From the NCBI RefSeq assembly GCF_003860565.1, contig NZ_CP034157.1:1116001-1180000 (forward strand): a DNA stretch of 64,000 nucleotides, given 5' to 3'. The translations under genes and the position numbers were made by a program. The stretch is from Cloacibacterium normanense (GTDB taxonomy: Bacteria > Bacteroidota > Bacteroidia > Flavobacteriales > Weeksellaceae). The notes below the pieces were generated by a model that saw only the letters and a list, made by a program, of their open reading frames with translations, ran no database searches and was not told where the DNA came from. This document shows, piece after piece, positions 49,915 through 58,551 of this stretch. The first letter of the stretch is position 1; every line of letters begins with the position of its first letter.

Positions 49915-50151
49915 TTAATAAACTTCTTGTACTTTTATATTCGGGCAGTTTTTCTCTATCCAAGCGGCATCAAATTCTTTGATTTCTCTTCTTTGTCCTT
50001 TGTAAATGTAGTATTCATTAGGCGTTTCTGAGTTTCCATCAATCACTTTTGGCATTTTATTGATGATTTTTTCTTCTGGGCAATCTTGGATTTTTGCCAC
50101 AGCACAACTCGAAAGAGTAAAAGCCGCAATGATAAAAAATAAAATTTTCAT
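49915..50151 (-). CDS. Small lipoprotein
   Basis: This 78-residue protein has a lipoprotein signal (MKILFFIIAAFTLSSC, Cys16) and a short mature part with CPEEK and YYIYKGQRREIKEFD. A second cysteine pair (C24, C69) might form a disulfide. It begins 3 bp past the E1 stop on the same strand and is probably co-transcribed with it. No family is recognised. Confidence 0.7.
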   Translation of the reverse strand: MKILFFIIAAFTLSSCAVAKIQDCPEEKIINKMPKVIDGNSETPNEYYIYKGQRREIKEFDAAWIEKNCPNIKVQEVY

Positions 50152-50154
50152 TTT

Positions 50155-52584
50155 TTAAATTTTTGGAAATTGAGAAGGGTTCGCTTCATGAAAAACTGCA
50201 TATATTTTCTCAACCATATCATCTACAGAAGGTTTTGAGAAATAATCTCCATCACTTGCATAAGCTGGTCTGTGATCATTTGCTGCAATCGTTAACGGAG
50301 CCGAATCCAAATATCTGAATGCTTTTTGTTTTTCTACAATTTGCTGAAGAATAAATGCAGAGGTTCCGCCTTCTACGTCTTCGTCTATAATCACTAAACG
50401 ATTGGTTTTCTTCACGCTTTCAGCAATTTCATGTGAAATATCAAATGGTATTAAAGACTGAATATCAATAACTTCCGCAGAAATTCCTAATTTTTCTAAT
50501 TCTTCGGCAGCTTCCATTACCAATCTCCAAGTAGAACCATACGTTACTAGAGTAACATCTTTTCCTTCTTTAGTTACTTCTATTTTACCAACCGGAACGG
50601 TGAATTCACCTAAATTATCTGGTTGTTTTTCTTTTAATCTATAACCATTAAGACATTCTACAATAATTGCTGGTTCATCACTCTGAAGCATCGTGTTATA
50701 AAAACCTGCTGCTTTAGTTAAATTCCTAGGAACCAAAACATTCACCCCTTTTACTAGGTTAATAATTCCCGCCATTGGTGAACCAGAATGCCAAATTCCT
50801 TCTAATCTATGACCACGAGTTCTGATGATAACTGGAGCTTTTTGTCCACCTTTTGTTCTGTAATGAAGTGTTGCCAAATCATCACTAATTCCTTGTAAAC
50901 AATACAAAATATAGTCTAAATACTGAATTTCTGCAATCGGACGAAGTCCACGCATCGCCATACCAATTCCTTGTCCCAAAATTGTAGCTTCTCTAATACC
51001 AGTATCTGCAACTCTTACTTTTCCGTATTTCTCTTGAAGTCCTTCTAAACCTTGGTTTACATCACCAATATTCCCTGCATCTTCACCGAAAACCAAAGTT
51101 TCAGGATATTTTTCAAAGATTTTATCAAAATTATTTCTTACCACTACTCTTCCATCTACCATTTCAGAATTTTCTGAGTAAACTGGTTTTACTTCTTTTA
51201 CATTGGTAGATTTCCATTCAGATTCTGAATACAAGTGTGAAGAATAATTATCTTTTTCTTGCGCTAAAAGCTGTTGATATTTAGAAGCAAGCCATTGTCT
51301 TTCAGTAGATTGATGAGTTCTAGTCAAAAGCAAAACTTTTCTCATCAAACTGAATACATCCTTTTTAGCATAAGAAATCAATGCACCGAATTTTTGCAGT
51401 TCTGCTTCTACTTCGCTATTCTGAGATTTTAGATTCTCTACTAACGGAAGTACTTCATTTTTAAGAATTTCTATAGAATTTCTATAATTTTCCCAAGCTT
51501 TTTTCTGACCGTCTTTTGCAATTTTTTTCGCTTCTTTTTCTAAATTTTCAAGTTCTTCTACTGTTGCTAAAATTTCTTCTTTTCCTTCAATTTCTATAGA
51601 ATAATTAAGAATCCATTCTTTAAATTTTTCTAAGCCGTCGAAATCTGCTTCCCATTTCAATCTATCTTCAGATTTATACCTTTCGTGAGAACCAGAAGTA
51701 GAGTGACCTTGTGGTTGAGTTACCTCTGTCACGTGAATTACCACAGGAACAGATTCTGTTCTTGCAAAATGTTCGGCTCTAGCATAAGCGTCTAGAAGTG
51801 CAGGATAATCCCAAGCTTTTACTTGAATAATTTCGCAACCTTCTGTTTTTCCTTCTTTTCTTTGGAAACCAGAAAGCATTTCTGCCATGTCTTCTTTTGC
51901 TCTTTGGTCATGAGTAGGAACAGAAATTCCGTAACCATCATCCCAAATTGATAAAATCATAGGAACTTGTAAAGCACAAGCAGCGTTCAAAGTTTCCCAG
52001 AAATGACCTTCTGCAGAAGACGCATCACCGATGGTTCCGAAAGCAACCTCGTTTCCATTATTGCTGAATTTCTCTGAACCGTGAAACTTAACTGATTTGT
52101 AAACCTTAGAAGCTTGAGCCAAACCTAGAAGTCTAGGCAGTTGTCCTGCAGTTGGAGAAATATCAGATGATATATTTTTAATTTGAGTTAAATCTTTCCA
52201 AGTTCCATCTTCATTTAAACTGCGTGTTGCAAAGTGACCATTCATTTGTCTACCAGCTGAAGCAGGTTCTCTTTCTACAGAAGTATCTGCATACAATTGT
52301 GCAAAGAAACTCTCTACTGATAAACCTCCAACTGCTAATGCGAAAGTTTGGTCTCTGTAATAGCCACTTCTAAAATCTCCATTTCTAAAAACTTTTGCCA
52401 TGGCTAATTGTGGTAATTCTTTACCATCACCTACAATCCCGAACTTAGCTTTACCTGTTAAAACTTCTCTTCTTGCTATATAAGACATTTCACGAGAAAT
52501 TCTACCTAGTTTATAGTCTGCTAATATTTGATTCTTAAAATCTTGAAAAGAAACTGTTTGTGTTTCGATATAAGTAGTTTGCAT
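50155..52584 (-). CDS. Fused alpha/beta E1 of a 2-oxoacid dehydrogenase
   Basis: This 809-residue protein joins E1-alpha and E1-beta in one chain, as is common in Bacteroidota. The alpha part (about 30-340) has YYRDQTFALAVGG, the thiamine-diphosphate motif GDASSAEGHFWETLNAA with IWDDGYGIS, and a phosphorylation-loop-like SGSHERYKS. The beta part (about 460-809) has FGEDAGNIG, GIREATILGQGIGMAMRGLRPIAEIQYLDY and the C-terminal transketolase domain (VTYGS). It would decarboxylate a 2-oxoacid and transfer the acyl group to E2 lipoate; branched-chain substrates are most likely. A -7 box TATCTTTG lies about 21 bp upstream of the ATG. Confidence 0.92.
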   Translation of the reverse strand: MQTTYIETQTVSFQDFKNQILADYKLGRISREMSYIARREVLTGKAKFGIVGDGKELPQLAMAKVFRNGDFRSGYYRDQTFALAVGGLSVESFFAQLYADTSVEREPASAGRQMNGHFATRSLNEDGTWKDLTQIKNISSDISPTAGQLPRLLGLAQASKVYKSVKFHGSEKFSNNGNEVAFGTIGDASSAEGHFWETLNAACALQVPMILSIWDDGYGISVPTHDQRAKEDMAEMLSGFQRKEGKTEGCEIIQVKAWDYPALLDAYARAEHFARTESVPVVIHVTEVTQPQGHSTSGSHERYKSEDRLKWEADFDGLEKFKEWILNYSIEIEGKEEILATVEELENLEKEAKKIAKDGQKKAWENYRNSIEILKNEVLPLVENLKSQNSEVEAELQKFGALISYAKKDVFSLMRKVLLLTRTHQSTERQWLASKYQQLLAQEKDNYSSHLYSESEWKSTNVKEVKPVYSENSEMVDGRVVVRNNFDKIFEKYPETLVFGEDAGNIGDVNQGLEGLQEKYGKVRVADTGIREATILGQGIGMAMRGLRPIAEIQYLDYILYCLQGISDDLATLHYRTKGGQKAPVIIRTRGHRLEGIWHSGSPMAGIINLVKGVNVLVPRNLTKAAGFYNTMLQSDEPAIIVECLNGYRLKEKQPDNLGEFTVPVGKIEVTKEGKDVTLVTYGSTWRLVMEAAEELEKLGISAEVIDIQSLIPFDISHEIAESVKKTNRLVIIDEDVEGGTSAFILQQIVEKQKAFRYLDSAPLTIAANDHRPAYASDGDYFSKPSVDDMVEKIYAVFHEANPSQFPKI

Positions 52585-52750
52585 ATCTTGGATAAGGATT
52601 TTTACAAAGATAATAAAATTATGGAATTGATAAAATAAATTGATTTTTTTGATTATTTTTCAATTACAAAACAAAACACAATATTTCTAGTGAAATACTG
52701 TGTTAAGCTCAACTTAATTAATATGAATGTATGAATAATTGTGATGATGT

Positions 52751-52850
52751 CTTTAAAAAATCTCCTCCGCTGCTCTGAGAACAAGCAGCGAAAGGAGAAA
52801 ACACAAACGATGAAAAAAAATTTTATTTTACTTTTATTAGATTTATTTTA
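52751..52850. repeat. Hairpin/3'-UTR repeat, unit R1
   Basis: On the minus strand this unit follows the small-protein gene at 52859-53080: an AT-rich leader, TTTCATCGTTTGTGTTTT, then a hairpin (52762-52796) and a run of six T. It therefore acts as that gene's terminator. About 90 percent of its bases match R2 and R3. Confidence 0.85.
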
Positions 52851-52858
52851 GCTGAATA

Positions 52859-53080
52859 TTACTTATTAAGAAATCTTAATGCTTCTTCTTCATTATGTAA
52901 AACTACTGTAGTCTTATTTTCATTACTATTTCTTAATTTTCTTTTATTTTGTATAATTTCTAAAATCTCAATGTCATTTTTACTCAAAACATCATCAGAT
53001 TTTTCTGAACTATTAGATTGTTTAAATGATAATACTGCGATTGAAGCCAATGCTAACAATATTGGTGTAAATTTTTTCAT
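52859..53080 (-). CDS. Small secreted protein P1
   Basis: This 73-residue protein has a signal peptide (MKKFTPILLALASIAVLSF) without a lipobox Cys. Its mature part holds a core, L-S-K-N-D-I-E-I-L-E-I-I-Q-N-K-R, that is paralogous to P2 at 53414-53629 (L-S-N-E-D-V-T-T-L-K-I-I-Q-K-N-R). The C-terminus is polar (NEEEALRFLNK). No known family is recognised. It is followed by hairpin unit R1. The pair of paralogues beside two duplicated membrane regulators suggests a common function, possibly a signal or regulated surface protein, but this is inference. Confidence 0.65.
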   Translation of the reverse strand: MKKFTPILLALASIAVLSFKQSNSSEKSDDVLSKNDIEILEIIQNKRKLRNSNENKTTVVLHNEEEALRFLNK

Positions 53081-53188
53081 AACAGTAAATTTTTAAATTA
53101 ATATTTTAAATTTCTTAAGATTAAAATATGTTTAAGAATATAAACAAAGTAAATCTTAGATATTCCTTTAAATTGTATTTTAAAATTT

Positions 53189-53290
53189 CTTTAAAAATCT
53201 CCTTCGCTGCTACGAAAACAAACAGCGAAAGGAGAAAACACAAACGATGAAAAAAAATTTTATTTTACTTTTTATAAATATTATTTTAAA
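53189..53290. repeat. Hairpin/3'-UTR repeat, unit R2 (no gene attached)
   Basis: This unit has the same sequence as R1 and R3: hairpin arms CTCCTTCGCTG (53199-53209) and CAGCGAAAGGAG (53223-53234), plus the AAAACACAAACGATGAAAAA flank. Unlike R1 and R3, no small-protein gene precedes it on the minus strand. It lies in the 333-bp gene-free stretch 53081-53413. Confidence 0.85.
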
Positions 53291-53317
53291 TCTTTCAAAA
53301 AATTTAAATAAAAAATT

Positions 53318-53420
53318 CTTCAAAAATCTCTTTCGCTGTTCTGAGAACAAACAGCGAAAAGAGAAAACACAAACGATGAAAAAAATTTTATCTTACTTTT
53401 TTATTAGATTTATTTATTTT
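53318..53420. repeat. Hairpin/3'-UTR repeat, unit R3
   Basis: Arms CTCTTTCGCTG (53328-53338) and CAGCGAAAAGAG (53352-53363) match those of R1 and R2, with a compensating change (C-to-T in the left arm, G-to-A in the right) that keeps pairing. On the minus strand it follows, and slightly overlaps, the end of the gene for P2 and serves as its terminator. Confidence 0.85.
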
Positions 53421-53629
53421 GGTGGCTTAACCACATCATCAAATTCTGATAAACTTGATTGAGTATCTATGCTGAAAGTTTTTACAGACGCGGTATCTCT
53501 AATATTTCTATTTTTTTGAATAATCTTTAGAGTTGTAACATCTTCATTACTTAAAATATTATCATTTTGTCTACATGAAACAAATAAAACACTTAATACT
53601 CCAATAGAAAAAAGAACTGTTTTTTTCAT
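53414..53629 (-). CDS. Small lipoprotein P2
   Basis: This 71-residue protein has a lipoprotein signal with lipobox LFVSC (Cys19) and a core paralogous to P1. The tail is acidic and serine-rich, ending FDDVVKPPK. It has one of the best promoters in the window (TTTG, 17 nt, TACATTTG) and a leader of only about 10 nt. It is transcribed divergently from the TPR-AraC regulator at 53814 across 184 bp, the usual layout for a regulator and its target. No known family is recognised. Confidence 0.65.
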   Translation of the reverse strand: MKKTVLFSIGVLSVLFVSCRQNDNILSNEDVTTLKIIQKNRNIRDTASVKTFSIDTQSSLSEFDDVVKPPK

Positions 53630-53643
53630 AACTAATTTTTTTA

Positions 53644-53672
53644 CAAATGTATCGTGAAAGTTTATCTACAAA
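53644..53672 (-). promoter_or_regulatory. Bacteroidota-type promoter of P2
   Basis: On the minus strand, TTTG (53672-53669), 17 nt, then TACATTTG (53651-53644). A second TTTG four bases upstream gives a 21-nt spacing alternative. The ATG is 15 bp past the -7 box. Confidence 0.75.
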
Positions 53673-53813
53673 CAAATTTTTCAACTGTCATTTCATAAAG
53701 AATTACTGTTGTTTTATAAAAATTATGATAAATTTTAGAAAAAATAACAGTATTATTGTAAAATTAATTTTTGAAGTCAAAAAAAATAATTTGATTAAAT
53801 TAATCAACTTGCT

Positions 53814-55601
53814 ATGAATCAACGTTTTAATATAAAAATATTATTTTTTACAATTCTTTTTTTTTCAGTTAATACTTTTAGTCAAAATATTAATTTAGAA
53901 AGAATGGATAATGAAGAAATTGAAAAAATAATTGATAGTTTATATTATTCAAACCCAGATGAAGGAATTAAAATTGTTAAATTTTACATAAAGAAATCCA
54001 AAAAAGAAAACAGTAATGAATCCTTATATATAGCCTACAGATATGCTAGTAAATTTTATCCAGTTCCAATAAACTTTAAATATACTGACAGCGCTCTCAT
54101 TGCAAGTAAAAGAACTGAAAATAAAACTTTAATTACTGACGCATATCTTAATAAAGGTGTTATTCTAATGGATGAGTCTTTATATCAGAAGGCGCTTGAT
54201 AATATATTAATAGCAAATAAATACTCTTTAGAACTCAATGATAATTATATAATAAATAAAACCACATATTTTATTGCTCAAAATAAAATCTACCTCGGCT
54301 TACATGAAGATGCAAACAAAGAATTAGTAAATTGTTATAACTATTTTAAAGTTAATCTTAATAAAAAAGTATTAAACGAAGACTACAAAACATATTATAT
54401 ATTTTCTCTTATGAGTTTAATAGATTCTAATACAAGAATTGGAAAACATCAAGAAAATATATCTCTATTAGAGGAAGCATACGATTTTATTTATAAAAAT
54501 AATTTTGAACATTTAAAACCATATTTTATTTCATCAGAAGGCACTGAAGCATTTTATAATGCAAACTATAATTTAGCAATTAAAAAACTTTCAGAAGCAA
54601 TTAGATTATATAATGACCAATGGCCACATTTAAATGATATTTTTTACATTGGCCTTTCAAATTGGAAACTTGGGAAAAGAGATGTAGCAGTTAAATATTT
54701 TGAGGAAATTGATAAAGAATATGACAAGTCAAAAAAATTAAATCCTGAATTTAGACCAGCATATGAACTATTAATTAAGTATAATGACTCCATTGGTAAT
54801 AGAGATAAGCAATTAAAATATATCAATACCTTAATGTCTCTTGATAAAAATTATGAAAAAAATTATAAGTACCTATTCTCTAAGATTAATAAAGAATATG
54901 ATACTCATAAACTCATAAATGAAAAGAACAAAATTGAAAGTTCTCTAAAAAATCAAAGAACTATAATTAGTTCAATATTATTAATAACCATCCTTGCATC
55001 ATTATTCTATTGGAATCGTTATAACTCTTTACAAAAAAAATATAAAGAAAAATTTGAAGAAATTATTTCACAGAAAAATATTTTAGAAAAAATAGAGACT
55101 CTTGCAGAAGTAGAATCAAAACAGGAAGATGATCTAAATCCAAAAACTCTTAACATAACTGACAAAATAAAAATTACCGCTCCAAAAAATTCTTCTGAAC
55201 TAGAATTTTACAACAAAATACCTGGTCTCAATCCTATTTTAGTTCAAAATATTTTGCAACAACTAGAAAAATTCGAAGAAGAACTTAGGTTTACTGATAA
55301 TCAGATGTCATTGAGACTTTTAAGTGAAGAATTTAACACCAATATACCTTATCTTTCTAAAATCATTAATGTGTACAAAGGAAAGAATTTTAACTATTAT
55401 ATTAATGATCTAAGAATCGACTACATTATAGAACTACTGAAAAATGATGCTACCTATTTAAACTATGATATCAAAAATCTAGCATCTCTAGCAGGCTTTA
55501 CGAATGCGGTAAACTTCTCTGACAATTTCCAAAGAAAATTTGAGATTAAACCTTCATACTTCATTAAAATGATGAAGGAAAATATTAAAACACATTCTTA
55601 A
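53814..55601 (+). CDS. TPR-transmembrane-AraC regulator A
   Basis: This 595-residue regulator has a signal sequence (ILFFTILFFSVNTFSQ), a periplasmic TPR array (about 30-370; clear repeats near AYLNKGVILMDESLYQKALDNI and FYIGLSNWKLGKRDVAVKYF), one membrane helix (IISSILLITILASLFYW, about 383-399), a coiled-coil linker and a C-terminal AraC-type double HTH (about 495-592: LLSEEFNTNIPYLSKIINVYKG and IKNLASLAGFTNAVNFSDNF). The topology suggests that an outside ligand, perhaps a peptide, is read by TPRs and passed to DNA. It is paralogous to regulator B, and its last 68 bp match B almost exactly. It is divergent from P2. Confidence 0.85.
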   Translation: MNQRFNIKILFFTILFFSVNTFSQNINLERMDNEEIEKIIDSLYYSNPDEGIKIVKFYIKKSKKENSNESLYIAYRYASKFYPVPINFKYTDSALIASKRTENKTLITDAYLNKGVILMDESLYQKALDNILIANKYSLELNDNYIINKTTYFIAQNKIYLGLHEDANKELVNCYNYFKVNLNKKVLNEDYKTYYIFSLMSLIDSNTRIGKHQENISLLEEAYDFIYKNNFEHLKPYFISSEGTEAFYNANYNLAIKKLSEAIRLYNDQWPHLNDIFYIGLSNWKLGKRDVAVKYFEEIDKEYDKSKKLNPEFRPAYELLIKYNDSIGNRDKQLKYINTLMSLDKNYEKNYKYLFSKINKEYDTHKLINEKNKIESSLKNQRTIISSILLITILASLFYWNRYNSLQKKYKEKFEEIISQKNILEKIETLAEVESKQEDDLNPKTLNITDKIKITAPKNSSELEFYNKIPGLNPILVQNILQQLEKFEEELRFTDNQMSLRLLSEEFNTNIPYLSKIINVYKGKNFNYYINDLRIDYIIELLKNDATYLNYDIKNLASLAGFTNAVNFSDNFQRKFEIKPSYFIKMMKENIKTHS

Positions 55602-55661
55602 AAACATCTAAATAAAAAAACTTCAACATTTTCATGTTGAAGTCCCCTTTGAAGAAGAACT

Positions 55662-55690
55662 TTACTATTCTAAATAGTAATGTTTTTTTT
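55662..55690 (+). terminator. Terminator region after regulator A
   Basis: TTACTATT pairs with AATAGTAA around CTA, followed by eight T. A second hairpin, CTTCAACAT with ATGTTGAAG around TTTC, lies just upstream at 55621-55642. Confidence 0.75.
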
Positions 55691-55865
55691 GGTCATTAAA
55701 TCTTACCTCTTTTTATCGTGTTTTAAGATGAAACAAAACTACTCTTTTCATTATTTTCTTACTAAAAACTGAACTCGGAATTCATAAAAATCAACCGGGA
55801 TTTTTTGAAAAAATATCATATTTCTTATTTCAATTTTTTGTTTTATCATTGTAGAAAAGTGAAAA

Positions 55866-57593
55866 TTGAAAGCAAAAATCAATAACTACCTAATAATCAA
55901 AAACTTAGTTTTTATAATTCTATTTTTTCTCCAAATACCAACAAACGCTCAAGGAAAAAAAATAGAAAATTTATCTTTTTTACAATTAGAACATAAAATT
56001 GATAGTTTAGTTTATAACAATGCTAATGCATCGCCATTAATCCAATTTTACATCAAAAAATCCAAGAAAGAAAATAATTTAAAAGCATTAGTTTATGCCT
56101 ACAGATATGCCAGTCAAAATCCTTCTGAAAAATATAAAGTCAAGTATTCTGATAGTGCTATATTAGTTGCTAAAAAAATAAATGATAATTCTATACTAGC
56201 AGAAGCATACATTAATAAATCTACTCTACTTATTGCAAAAAACCAACACGATGTTGCTTCTAATTATCTAATGCTTGCTAACAGAATTGCAGAAAAAACA
56301 AATGATAATTATTTAAAATATCAAACAATTTATTCTATTGCTCAAAATTATTTGTATTTAGGTCGATTATCTGATGCCAAAAAGGAATATGAAAAATGTG
56401 TAAATTTCTTTTCTGTAAATCTTGATAAATCGCAGACCTACGGGAAAAATTATGAAATGATGTTTATGTACTCTTTAATCAATTTGATTGACATCAACTC
56501 AAAATTAAATCAATTTTCTGATAATGAAATATTATTAAAAAAAGCTTTTCAATATATTAAAGAAAACAAATCTAATTTTTATTATGCATATTTTATTTCT
56601 TGCGAAGGAACCAACGCTTATTTTCTTAAAAATTATTTTTTGGCTATAGAAAAATTGAAGAAGGCTCAAACTTTATACCAAGATAGTTGGCCTCACTACA
56701 CAGAAATTTTTTACATAGGAATGTCCTATTGGCAATTAGGAAACAAAAAAGAAGCCGTAAAATATTTTGAAAAATTAGATAAGGAATATTATATAGGAAT
56801 AAATAGAAATCCTCAATATAGACCTGCTTACGAATTACTTATAGAATACTACGCTTCTAAAAATAACACAGATAAGCAACTCGAATACATTAACAAATTA
56901 ATGTCTTTGGATAAATCTTATGAAAAGAACTACAAATATCTTTTTGCCAAAATTCATAAAGAATATGATACTCAAAAGCTTATTGAAGAGAAAAATAATA
57001 TTGAAAACAGCTTAAAAATTCATCAATATCTCACGCTTTTTGTAATCATTATAAGTATAGTATTGATTTCTTTTTCTACTTATAAATATTTCCAAATACA
57101 AAGGAGATATAAAGAACGTTTTGAACAAATAATTTCACAAAAAAAAACAGAAATCGAGAAAATCCCAGATACAATTGTTGAAGAGGATAAAACTTTAACT
57201 CCAAAAATCGCGGGACTTAGTGAATCAACCATTACATATATTCTAGAACAGTTAGAAATTTTCGAAAAAGAACAACAATTTCTAGACTATAAAATCACTC
57301 AAAAATTACTCAGCGAAAAACTGGGAACCAATCCAACTTATCTATCTAAAATTATTAATGTTTATAAAGAGAAAAACTTTAGTAATTATCTCAATGACTT
57401 AAGGTTAGAATATGTTGTAGAATTGCTCAAAACAGAACATAAATACTTGAATAGAGACATCAAAGAATTGGCAAATATTGCAGGATTTACAAATGCTGAG
57501 GCATTTTCGGATAATTTCCAAAGAAAATTTGAGATTAAACCTTCGTACTTCATTAAAATGATGAAGGAAAATATTAAAACTTCCTCTCTATAA
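55866..57593 (+). CDS. TPR-transmembrane-AraC regulator B
   Basis: This 575-residue paralogue of regulator A has the same order: signal sequence (NLVFIILFFLQIPTNAQ), TPR array (about 30-365), membrane helix (YLTLFVIIISIVLISFSTYKYF, about 380-400), coiled-coil, and AraC-type HTH (LLSEKLGTNPTYLSKIINVYKE, then IKELANIAGFTNAEAFSDNF). The only usable start is TTG 55866: an in-frame stop lies immediately upstream, and the next Met is deep in the TPR region. Its 3' end overlaps the convergent polyprenyl synthetase gene by 20 bp. No small-protein gene accompanies it directly; the P1/P2 block lies on the far side of regulator A. Confidence 0.82.
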   Translation: MKAKINNYLIIKNLVFIILFFLQIPTNAQGKKIENLSFLQLEHKIDSLVYNNANASPLIQFYIKKSKKENNLKALVYAYRYASQNPSEKYKVKYSDSAILVAKKINDNSILAEAYINKSTLLIAKNQHDVASNYLMLANRIAEKTNDNYLKYQTIYSIAQNYLYLGRLSDAKKEYEKCVNFFSVNLDKSQTYGKNYEMMFMYSLINLIDINSKLNQFSDNEILLKKAFQYIKENKSNFYYAYFISCEGTNAYFLKNYFLAIEKLKKAQTLYQDSWPHYTEIFYIGMSYWQLGNKKEAVKYFEKLDKEYYIGINRNPQYRPAYELLIEYYASKNNTDKQLEYINKLMSLDKSYEKNYKYLFAKIHKEYDTQKLIEEKNNIENSLKIHQYLTLFVIIISIVLISFSTYKYFQIQRRYKERFEQIISQKKTEIEKIPDTIVEEDKTLTPKIAGLSESTITYILEQLEIFEKEQQFLDYKITQKLLSEKLGTNPTYLSKIINVYKEKNFSNYLNDLRLEYVVELLKTEHKYLNRDIKELANIAGFTNAEAFSDNFQRKFEIKPSYFIKMMKENIKTSSL

Positions 57594-58551
57594 CGTAATC
57601 AAGCATCAAATTAAGAGAATGTTTCGCGTCAGAATCAGGGAATTCTGCAAGGATATTTTTTGCTTTTTGCTGAAAATCTTTCATTACACCAATTGCATAA
57701 TCCAGTCCACCAGATTTTTTCACAAATTCTATCAGCTCTTTTACGCGTTTTTGGTCGTTATTATATCTTTTTATAGTATTGAAATAGTACTTTCTATCAG
57801 CTTCATTCGCCGTTTTCAAAGTATGAATAAGCGGCAAAGTCATCTTTTGCTCTTTTATGTCAATCCCAACTGGTTTTCCAATAATATTTTTAGAAAGATA
57901 ATCAAACAAATCGTCTTTGATTTGGAACGCCATTCCTGTATAAGTACCGAAATCTTGCATTTTTTTGGCTAAAACTTCATCAGCACCATTAGACAAAACG
58001 CCCACTTCGCAACAAGCTGCAATAAGTGTAGCCGTTTTTTGACGAATAATTTCATAGTAAACGTCTTCTGTAATGTCTAATTTTCTGGCTTTTTCTAATT
58101 GAAGCAACTCTCCTTCAGACATTTCTCTGATGGTTCTAGAAATAACAGCCAATAAATCAAAATCTTTATTATCTGTAGAAAGTAAAACCGATTTAGATAG
58201 TAAATAATCACCCACCAAAACCGCAATTTTATTTTTCCATAAAGCATTGATAGAAAAGAAATTACGACGTTTGAAACTTTCGTCTACTACGTCATCATGA
58301 ACCAAAGTAGCAGTATGAATCAACTCAATCATAGAAGCGCCACGAAACGTCTTTTCATTTACATTTCCTACCAATTGAGCGGTAAGAAATACAAACATTG
58401 GTCGCATTTGCTTTCCTTTGGTGGTTACAATAAAACGAGTAACTTTATCAAGCAAAGGAACTCTGCTTTGCATAGATTCATAAAACTTTTGTTCAAAAAG
58501 TTTCATTTCTTCGTTAATCGGCTTCTTGATTTCTTCTACGATGTTTGACAC
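57574..58551 (-). CDS. Polyprenyl diphosphate synthase
   Basis: This 325-residue enzyme extends an allylic diphosphate with isopentenyl units. It has both aspartate-rich motifs: the first, LVHDDVVDES (about 86-95), and the second, QIKDDLFDY (about 215-223), plus TTKGKQMRPM near the N-terminus. I chose the GTG at 58551 (reading VSNIVEEIKKPINEEMKLF), which matches the usual family start; longer frames add an atypical 15 residues. Product length is not predictable with confidence, though an octaprenyl-type quinone side chain is common. The gene overlaps regulator B on the other strand at its end. Confidence 0.88.
   Translation of the reverse strand: MSNIVEEIKKPINEEMKLFEQKFYESMQSRVPLLDKVTRFIVTTKGKQMRPMFVFLTAQLVGNVNEKTFRGASMIELIHTATLVHDDVVDESFKRRNFFSINALWKNKIAVLVGDYLLSKSVLLSTDNKDFDLLAVISRTIREMSEGELLQLEKARKLDITEDVYYEIIRQKTATLIAACCEVGVLSNGADEVLAKKMQDFGTYTGMAFQIKDDLFDYLSKNIIGKPVGIDIKEQKMTLPLIHTLKTANEADRKYYFNTIKRYNNDQKRVKELIEFVKKSGGLDYAIGVMKDFQQKAKNILAEFPDSDAKHSLNLMLDYVIERKF

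Follow-up and report, generated by a model that had tools for sequence, protein, structure and literature searches.

A small lipoprotein gene recurs back to back with a membrane-spanning TPR-AraC regulator gene in Cloacibacterium normanense and its family: a candidate one-component module

Introduction

What does a membrane-spanning regulator with a tetratricopeptide repeat (TPR) array respond to, and what does it control, when the gene beside it encodes a very small exported protein? This study investigated the question at a locus of Cloacibacterium normanense, a member of the Weeksellaceae (NCBI RefSeq assembly GCF_003860565.1, contig NZ_CP034157.1, positions 1,116,001 to 1,180,000); this whole stretch of 64,000 nucleotides is referred to as the window, and the genome containing it is a single contig of 2.76 Mb. 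Two genes for small proteins, P1 and P2, lie beside the genes of two regulators, RegA and RegB, which combine a signal peptide, a TPR array, a membrane helix, and an AraC-type helix-turn-helix (HTH) domain. To our knowledge, membrane TPR-HTH regulators are common in Bacteroidota and their ligands are mostly unknown. An earlier reading of the window (the original prediction) proposed that the small proteins, or fragments of them, could be ligands or targets of the regulators. Our analysis provides a strong case for P2 as the target of RegA and presents its role as the ligand as a hypothesis.

Results

P-type genes and TPR-AraC regulators in the host's family

The four genes of the locus are as follows (window coordinates throughout).

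52859-53080, minus strand: P1, an open reading frame (ORF) of 73 amino acids (aa), a P2 paralogue without the cysteine and the tail
53414-53629, minus strand: P2, an ORF of 71 aa, a small lipoprotein and the standard partner
53814-55601, plus strand: RegA, 595 aa, with signal peptide, TPR array, membrane helix, and AraC-type HTH
55866-57593, plus strand: RegB, 575 aa, TTG start, a tandem RegA paralogue

P2 and RegA are divergent and are separated by 184 nucleotides (nt). P2 was classified as a lipoprotein by its signal peptide with a lipobox cysteine, and it ends in a short proline-containing tail.

53573-53584, minus strand: P2 lipobox FVSC, with Cys19 as the predicted lipidated residue
53417-53440, minus strand: P2 C-terminal tail DDVVKPPK, read from the sequence, with two prolines invariant in an alignment of 25 sequences

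This layout of lipobox, variable linker, and Pro-Pro tail (KPPK here, DPPVKDGxxW in relatives) defines the P-type proteins. The invariant columns in the alignment of 25 P proteins were S-C-R and the two prolines near the C-terminus, and acidic residues follow the lipid-carrying cysteine in many of the proteins. In L132, L145, and one L133 gene, the lipobox cysteine is lost and the Pro-Pro tail is kept; L133 also holds an adjacent copy with the cysteine. Several genomes carry more than one pair with different tails, for example three each in G014, G126, and G058. Scans against Pfam and NCBIfam placed no P protein in a family above cut-off; the match of P2 to the PG1828 family lipoprotein (NF050142) scored 25.2 bits, and four relatives scored 15.4-24.2 bits or were unlisted, against a cut-off of 50 bits. 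The structure model of P2 had a low mean predicted local distance difference test score (pLDDT, 61.9) and was predicted to be largely unstructured, consistent with a flexible display linker.

A search based on the P2 sequence alone across 148 genomes of the host's family yielded 30 loci, and a regulator homologue lay beside the match in 26 of them. The four loci without one were L048, L055, L057, and L059; among the P2 matches examined by length, three of these four carried longer lipoproteins of 139-190 aa. All 25 distinct P genes examined, a set in which identical proteins were taken once and one additional P gene of G003 was included, were divergent from a regulator. The gap between the two genes was 174-297 nt in 23 of the 25 and 532 and 568 nt in the other two, depending on the regulator start codon chosen.

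For the forward count, we took 80 regulators approximately ordered by how closely they resemble RegA; split duplicates were excluded, as were most of the nearest regulators, which had already been sampled. L178 was excluded at a contig end, and a P-type gene occupied the divergent slot, the only place scanned in this count, of 63 of the remaining 79 testable regulators of the family (58 by script, with the candidates inspected by eye, and five that the script passed over or put aside, L129, L131, L175, L200, and L201, by eye); the evidence on orientation comes from the 25-gene set and the reverse count. An automatic rule blind to the tail placed a small lipoprotein in 57 of 78 divergent slots, 52 of them with the tail, whereas all remaining parts of the same loci held six small lipoproteins and no tail, corresponding to 0.006 expected per slot. 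The reverse count was a profile search of 393 genomes of the host's order, from which 16 matches reaching profile position 74 at least and lying outside the regulator loci already sampled were chosen by eye among the matches listed; shorter matches, mostly the lipoprotein leader of longer proteins, were uncounted. Of these 16 full-length P matches, 15 were divergent from a regulator, and the exception, L290 from another family, showed a weak match of the regulator type (39 bits), which lay in the same orientation.

Chance or artefact was rejected on the basis of this two-way association and the comparison of 57 of 78 with 0.006 per slot. A majority of P homologues apart from regulators, an outcome that the original prediction had named as refuting it, was looked for and not found. 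These findings point to a two-gene module that recurs in the host's family, in which the regulator is usually back to back with a P gene.

Operator-like repeats beside the P promoter

The gap between P2 and RegA contains a candidate promoter and three repeated sites, all of them putative and located as follows.

53644-53676, minus strand: P2 promoter, TACATTTG (53644-53651) and TTTG (53673-53676) with a 21-nt spacer, aligned over 18 loci
53684-53699, plus strand: operator half-site 1, ACTGTCATTTCATAAA, from the intergenic alignment
53705-53720, plus strand: operator half-site 2, ACTGTTGTTTTATAAA, 21 bp from half-site 1, from the intergenic alignment
53747-53762, plus strand: half-site 3, ACAGTATTATTGTAAA, toward the regulator and 42 bp from half-site 2, from the intergenic alignment and the enrichment at offset 42

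The promoter consensus of the phylum is TTTG/TAnnTTTG, and the good promoter that the original prediction had placed before P2, divergent from RegA, was recovered in the alignment of relatives. The P-RegA gap aligns across 18 near loci, which represent several genera: the P promoter boxes are followed by half-sites ACnGTnnTTTnnTAAA 21 bp apart, and a third half-site lies 42 bp further toward the regulator. The mean best repeat score in these loci was 13.17 at offset 21 (10.49 in shuffled sequences) and 14.06 at offset 42 (10.34 shuffled); in 51 far loci, it was 13.57 at offset 22 (10.96 shuffled). Each value exceeded all 200 shuffles, as did the weaker signals at offset 22 in the near loci (12.22 vs 10.46) and offset 21 in the far loci (11.78 vs 10.94), and at offset 44 the score was not raised over shuffles. 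In a second clade, all 12 loci had another element in common (GAATTAGGACGT....ATTTC..AAT), which occupies the equivalent position and lies upstream of a promoter-like box preceding P. We read these intergenic direct repeats as a putative AraC-type operator.

We then counted matches genome-wide; the patterns were derived from the very loci scanned, and uniqueness alone is informative in these counts. The half-site pair had one exact match in its own genome and three others with 3 mismatches, compared with 2 for a reversed control pattern. The near-clade pattern had one match in 10 of 14 genomes and none in the other four (G002, G005, G006, and G066). The second-clade pattern had one exact match in each of 12 genomes, always in the P-regulator gap, and 12 further matches with 3 mismatches compared with 17 for the control. 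A broad regulon was rejected, since close operator matches numbered approximately one per genome. The repeats lie against the P promoter and their match is nearly unique in each genome; therefore, P is very probably the dedicated target of the adjacent regulator. The proposal that the small proteins are targets of the regulators was thus well supported for P2, with an operator-like element at its promoter and one close match per genome; P1 lacks the cysteine and the tail of a standard partner.

Structure of the regulators

RegA and RegB share 48% identity. RegB exceeded the Pfam cut-offs for HTH_18 (41.5 vs 33.6 bits) and for TPR models, whereas RegA scored 33.4 bits for HTH_18, just under the cut-off of 33.6, and was also below the Pfam TPR cut-offs. 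The AlphaFold2 model of RegA (mean pLDDT 86.7, predicted template modelling score 0.63) comprised a helical-repeat array at approximately residues 33-361 and then a long helix, with the HTH domain at the C-terminus. Hydropathy predicted for both proteins alike a signal stretch at the N-terminus and, near residue 383-403, a single membrane helix. Together, these results agree with the description of RegA and RegB as paralogous regulators in the original prediction. Same-genus genomes carry two or three tandem regulators. As a separate observation, L013 (G003:C1:291285-293696) is an open frame of 830 residues that matched the whole regulator and then the part at residues 343-593 again, possibly a regulator in which the membrane-HTH module is duplicated.

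In a structural comparison in which 963 PDB chains were re-aligned, residues 29-372 of the RegA model matched NprR-NprX (4gpk) with Z 22.9 and a root-mean-square deviation of 5.8 over 320 aligned residues. The TPR array also matched APPBP2 with a C-degron (Z 25.4, the best), LGN (Z 25.0), and a phage Rap with its pheromone (Z 22.6), and most of the top matches bind peptides in a groove. A profile of the regulator picked up RapJ (E 3e-6). A sequence-profile search of solved structures found none with the whole RegA architecture, and the best PDB matches covered the HTH part or the TPR repeats separately. The modelled TPR array of RegA resembles peptide-binding TPRs, and a common fold is not evidence of a common function.

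Partner types on the regulator tree

Other regulators of this type adjoin other partners, which we labelled by eye. Eleven regulators of one genus, probably Flavobacterium, in another family (f3; L210-L219 and L231) were divergent from an unrelated-looking lipoprotein of 201-246 aa, often or usually with a membrane protein of approximately 80 aa behind it; the one example scanned had no significant Pfam match. Sister regulators lay beside double-glycine-leader peptides (L028, L176, L182, L199, L220-L224, and L232), several followed by a gene for a subtilase or another exported enzyme, and exported-type proteases occur in this clade (S8 at L222). On a FastTree tree of 109 regulators, seven partner labels required 16 changes compared with a shuffled mean of 53.0 (0 of 200 shuffles as low), a clustering that near-copies in the tree favour, and the two tail classes required one change. 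Partner type follows the regulator tree. A search of the phylum that scored up to four candidates per genome at E <= 1e-40 found regulator matches in 24 of 296 genomes.

In some clades, a MauE-type gene lies on the P side; its CSCGG motif was found in 18 of 80 loci. In L003, L021, L208, and L228, the gene behind P is a cysteine-containing ORF of 56-60 aa (CxTGxxCPxSGxWE..MPDYCG) with no family match, followed by a MauE-type gene. L003 has a MauE Pfam match on the P side and an RteC-type gene 3' of the regulator.

Coevolution of tail and regulator domains

Distance correlations and partial Mantel tests were applied to 60 pairs. The tail had the highest correlation with the regulator (r 0.78), followed by the leader (0.61) and the linker (0.56). 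The partial Mantel tests on these pairs did not single out a link between tail and TPR array, and they separated neither TPR from HTH nor tail, leader, and linker from one another.

P1 and the surroundings of the locus

P1 and P2 were found to be paralogous, as the original prediction had held, by a pairwise BLASTP match (E 4e-07) and by a profile of P2-type proteins that was built without P1 and recovered it in its own genome (E 1.4e-7). P1 has a phenylalanine in the cysteine position, at which the lipobox fails, and a different C-terminus with no conserved tail. Its match to the Phr family (TIGR04429) was confined to the signal-peptide part and scored 17.1 bits, under the cut-off of 25 bits. 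P1 is present in five of seven genomes of the genus Cloacibacterium and is nearly invariant across these five. Its nonsynonymous divergence (dN) was well below its synonymous divergence (dS) in the pairs compared, indicating purifying selection, and its dS was lower than that of RegA in every comparison (0.074 for P1 vs 0.516 for RegA between the host and G002). This low synonymous divergence may reflect strong constraint, recent exchange, or high expression. P1 and RegB are genus-level paralogues, and only P2 behaves as a standard partner.

The following hairpin-forming sequences surround the genes.

52733-52849, minus strand: terminator-like hairpin repeat, copy 1, after P1
53170-53286, minus strand: terminator-like hairpin repeat, copy 2, between P2 and P1
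53299-53415, minus strand: terminator-like hairpin repeat, copy 3, after P2
55620-55643, plus strand: hairpin after RegA, a possible terminator

The repeats of approximately 117 nt occur as three full copies within 52733-53415 and in no full copy elsewhere in the genome, where seven other matches were short cores of 23-35 nt. A mobile or dispersed element was rejected on this confinement to the P1/P2 locus, and the repeats are read as local terminator duplications. An Rfam scan of 52500-58000 gave no match at the gathering score. A 2-oxoacid dehydrogenase E1 gene adjoins the locus in 9 of 10 near loci examined (L124-L133), and this conserved neighbour therefore points to vertical inheritance of the locus. 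In the window, a 78-aa small lipoprotein-like ORF (SSCA; 49915-50151) lies 3' of a 2-oxoacid dehydrogenase gene and has no family match above cut-off.

Discussion

The organization of the locus suggests that RegA and P2 may each supply one half of a dedicated one-component module. RegA is predicted to be anchored in the inner membrane, with the TPR array in the periplasm and the AraC-type HTH in the cytoplasm. As the phylogenetic footprint suggests, it would bind the half-sites in the P2-RegA gap, drive P2 from the adjoining promoter, and probably control its own gene through half-site 3. P2 would be exported, lipidated, and shown on a disordered linker, and its Pro-Pro tail may dock in the TPR groove of RegA; the P2 promoter would thereby be informed of how much P2 there is, where it is, or how it has been processed, which would close the loop. 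The predicted topology, the conservation of the tail, and a TPR fold of the peptide-binding type would all suit a role of the P2 tail as the RegA ligand. In relatives, several such loops with different tails and operators would run side by side, probably insulated from one another. We consider this whole closed loop, in which RegA drives P2 and the TPR array reads the P2 tail, slightly more probable than all other accounts together.

Several observations weigh against this account. Sixteen of the 79 testable regulators have no P-type gene (L138, L154, L158, L161, L167, L171, L173, L176, L179, L182, L183, L184, L188, L190, L194, and L199): L173 and L176 carry small ORFs of another kind that look exported, small membrane proteins are found at L167 and L179, and four of the 16 (L176, L182, L199, and L194) belong with the double-glycine-leader loci. 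Six of the 63 P-type genes are atypical: L132 and L145 lack the cysteine, and the tail is changed or missing in L142, L160, L191, and L169, the last of these probably frameshifted. In the locus itself, P1 has neither cysteine nor tail, RegB lacks a P gene of its own, and the larger-lipoprotein clade has no evident P tail. The partial correlation of the tail with the TPR array (0.26) is no higher than those of leader and linker (0.27 and 0.28), and between the tail and the HTH domain a partial correlation of 0.15 persists. TPR arrays are generic; peptide-bound examples abound among the PDB chains matched, a list that had no negative control. The half-site model was taken from the same alignments in which the sites were then counted. 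The gene association and the footprint are sequence-level evidence. Finally, the function of P for the cell is unexplained if P is the sole target.

A less probable account, and still a serious one, is that P is an output only: the TPR array would sense another periplasmic protein, a peptide, or damage, the AraC domain would turn on P, and the tail would act on a client of its own. Regulator-target gene pairs are common, the operator and promoter evidence speaks to target status alone, the partial Mantel tests show no preference for the TPR array, and the MauE-type gene on the P side in some clades gives these loci the look of an output operon. However, each regulator clade keeps its tail even as the linker diverges, P is very small and predicted to be unstructured, and both partners are predicted to be extracytoplasmic.

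It is improbable that P is a pheromone precursor from which a protease frees the tail, which would leave the cell, cross the outer membrane of neighbouring cells, and be read in their periplasm by the TPR array, making each pair a private quorum-sensing channel. The gene layout is that of the RRNPP pairs (PMC10075063), in which a propeptide gene lies beside a TPR receptor gene. The multiple pairs with different tails in one genome, the exported-type proteases of the double-glycine-leader clade, and the P variants that retain the tail without the cysteine also agree with this account, whereas the lipobox kept in most P genes suggests tethering rather than release, and no protease gene is constantly beside P. 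Lipoprotein-trafficking stress is sensed by NlpE-Cpx and RcsF-Rcs, and acidic residues after the lipidated cysteine are surface-lipoprotein export signals in this phylum. A trafficking sensor of this kind, in which P would ordinarily be transported to the outer membrane or the surface of the cell and, if this failed, would stay near the inner membrane, meet the TPR array, and trigger a response, would suit the acidic residues of many P proteins and is very improbable, because one close operator-like match per genome leaves no stress regulon visible and several different pairs per genome misfit a general stress sensor.

The closed loop with P2 as target and candidate ligand resembles several known systems in part. 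In the RRNPP(A) systems (Rap-Phr, NprR-NprX, PlcR, PrgX, and AimR), which are defined by an N-terminal HTH of the cro/xre type or none, a small secreted-protein gene likewise lies beside a TPR receptor gene, paralogous pairs occur within one genome, and the TPR fold is near that of the RegA model, in NprR and Rap. RRNPP receptors are cytoplasmic and have no membrane helix, whereas the receptor here is predicted to span the membrane with a periplasmic TPR array and carries a C-terminal AraC HTH_18; the partner, encoded divergently in Bacteroidota, is a lipoprotein whose C-terminal tail is conserved, and a re-import step would be unnecessary. ToxR-ToxS and TcpP-TcpH are membrane-tethered one-component regulators with a small periplasmic partner, and they share with RegA a periplasmic sensor, one membrane helix, a cytoplasmic DNA-binding domain, and a small exported partner next door; RegA differs in its TPR sensor, its AraC-type HTH, and a disordered lipoprotein partner with an operator-like site at its own promoter. 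The C-terminal HTH_18 and the direct-repeat half-sites 21-22 bp apart beside a promoter, as judged from the DNA, recall AraC/XylS regulators, from which RegA differs in that its HTH is fused to a signal peptide, a TPR array, and a membrane helix. Passages of PMC10352776 describe TPR-domain genes in two predicted Bacteroidales clusters for ribosomally synthesized and post-translationally modified peptides and cite pheromone-type regulation in other bacteria. The sister regulators reported here adjoin double-glycine-leader peptides like those of such loci, whereas P is a lipoprotein with a Pro-Pro tail, and those passages contain no P-type partners. A search of open-access PMC full texts found no description of the regulator-P pair.

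We tentatively propose, at somewhat less than even confidence, that these proteins represent a large undescribed class in Bacteroidota, in which membrane-spanning TPR-AraC receptors would each read a partner of their own (the tail of a small lipoprotein or, among sister regulators, a larger lipoprotein or a double-glycine-leader peptide), the partner gene would be the dedicated target, and several insulated loops would operate per genome, forming a Gram-negative counterpart of RRNPP without peptide import. Partner gene, tail, and operator are all readable from the genome, which yields candidate receptor-ligand-operator triples in the hundreds. With the tail as the ligand, peptide-TPR signalling would extend from the Firmicute cytoplasm to the Gram-negative periplasm; otherwise, small lipoproteins controlled by a dedicated one-component regulator are still a class that this locus defines.

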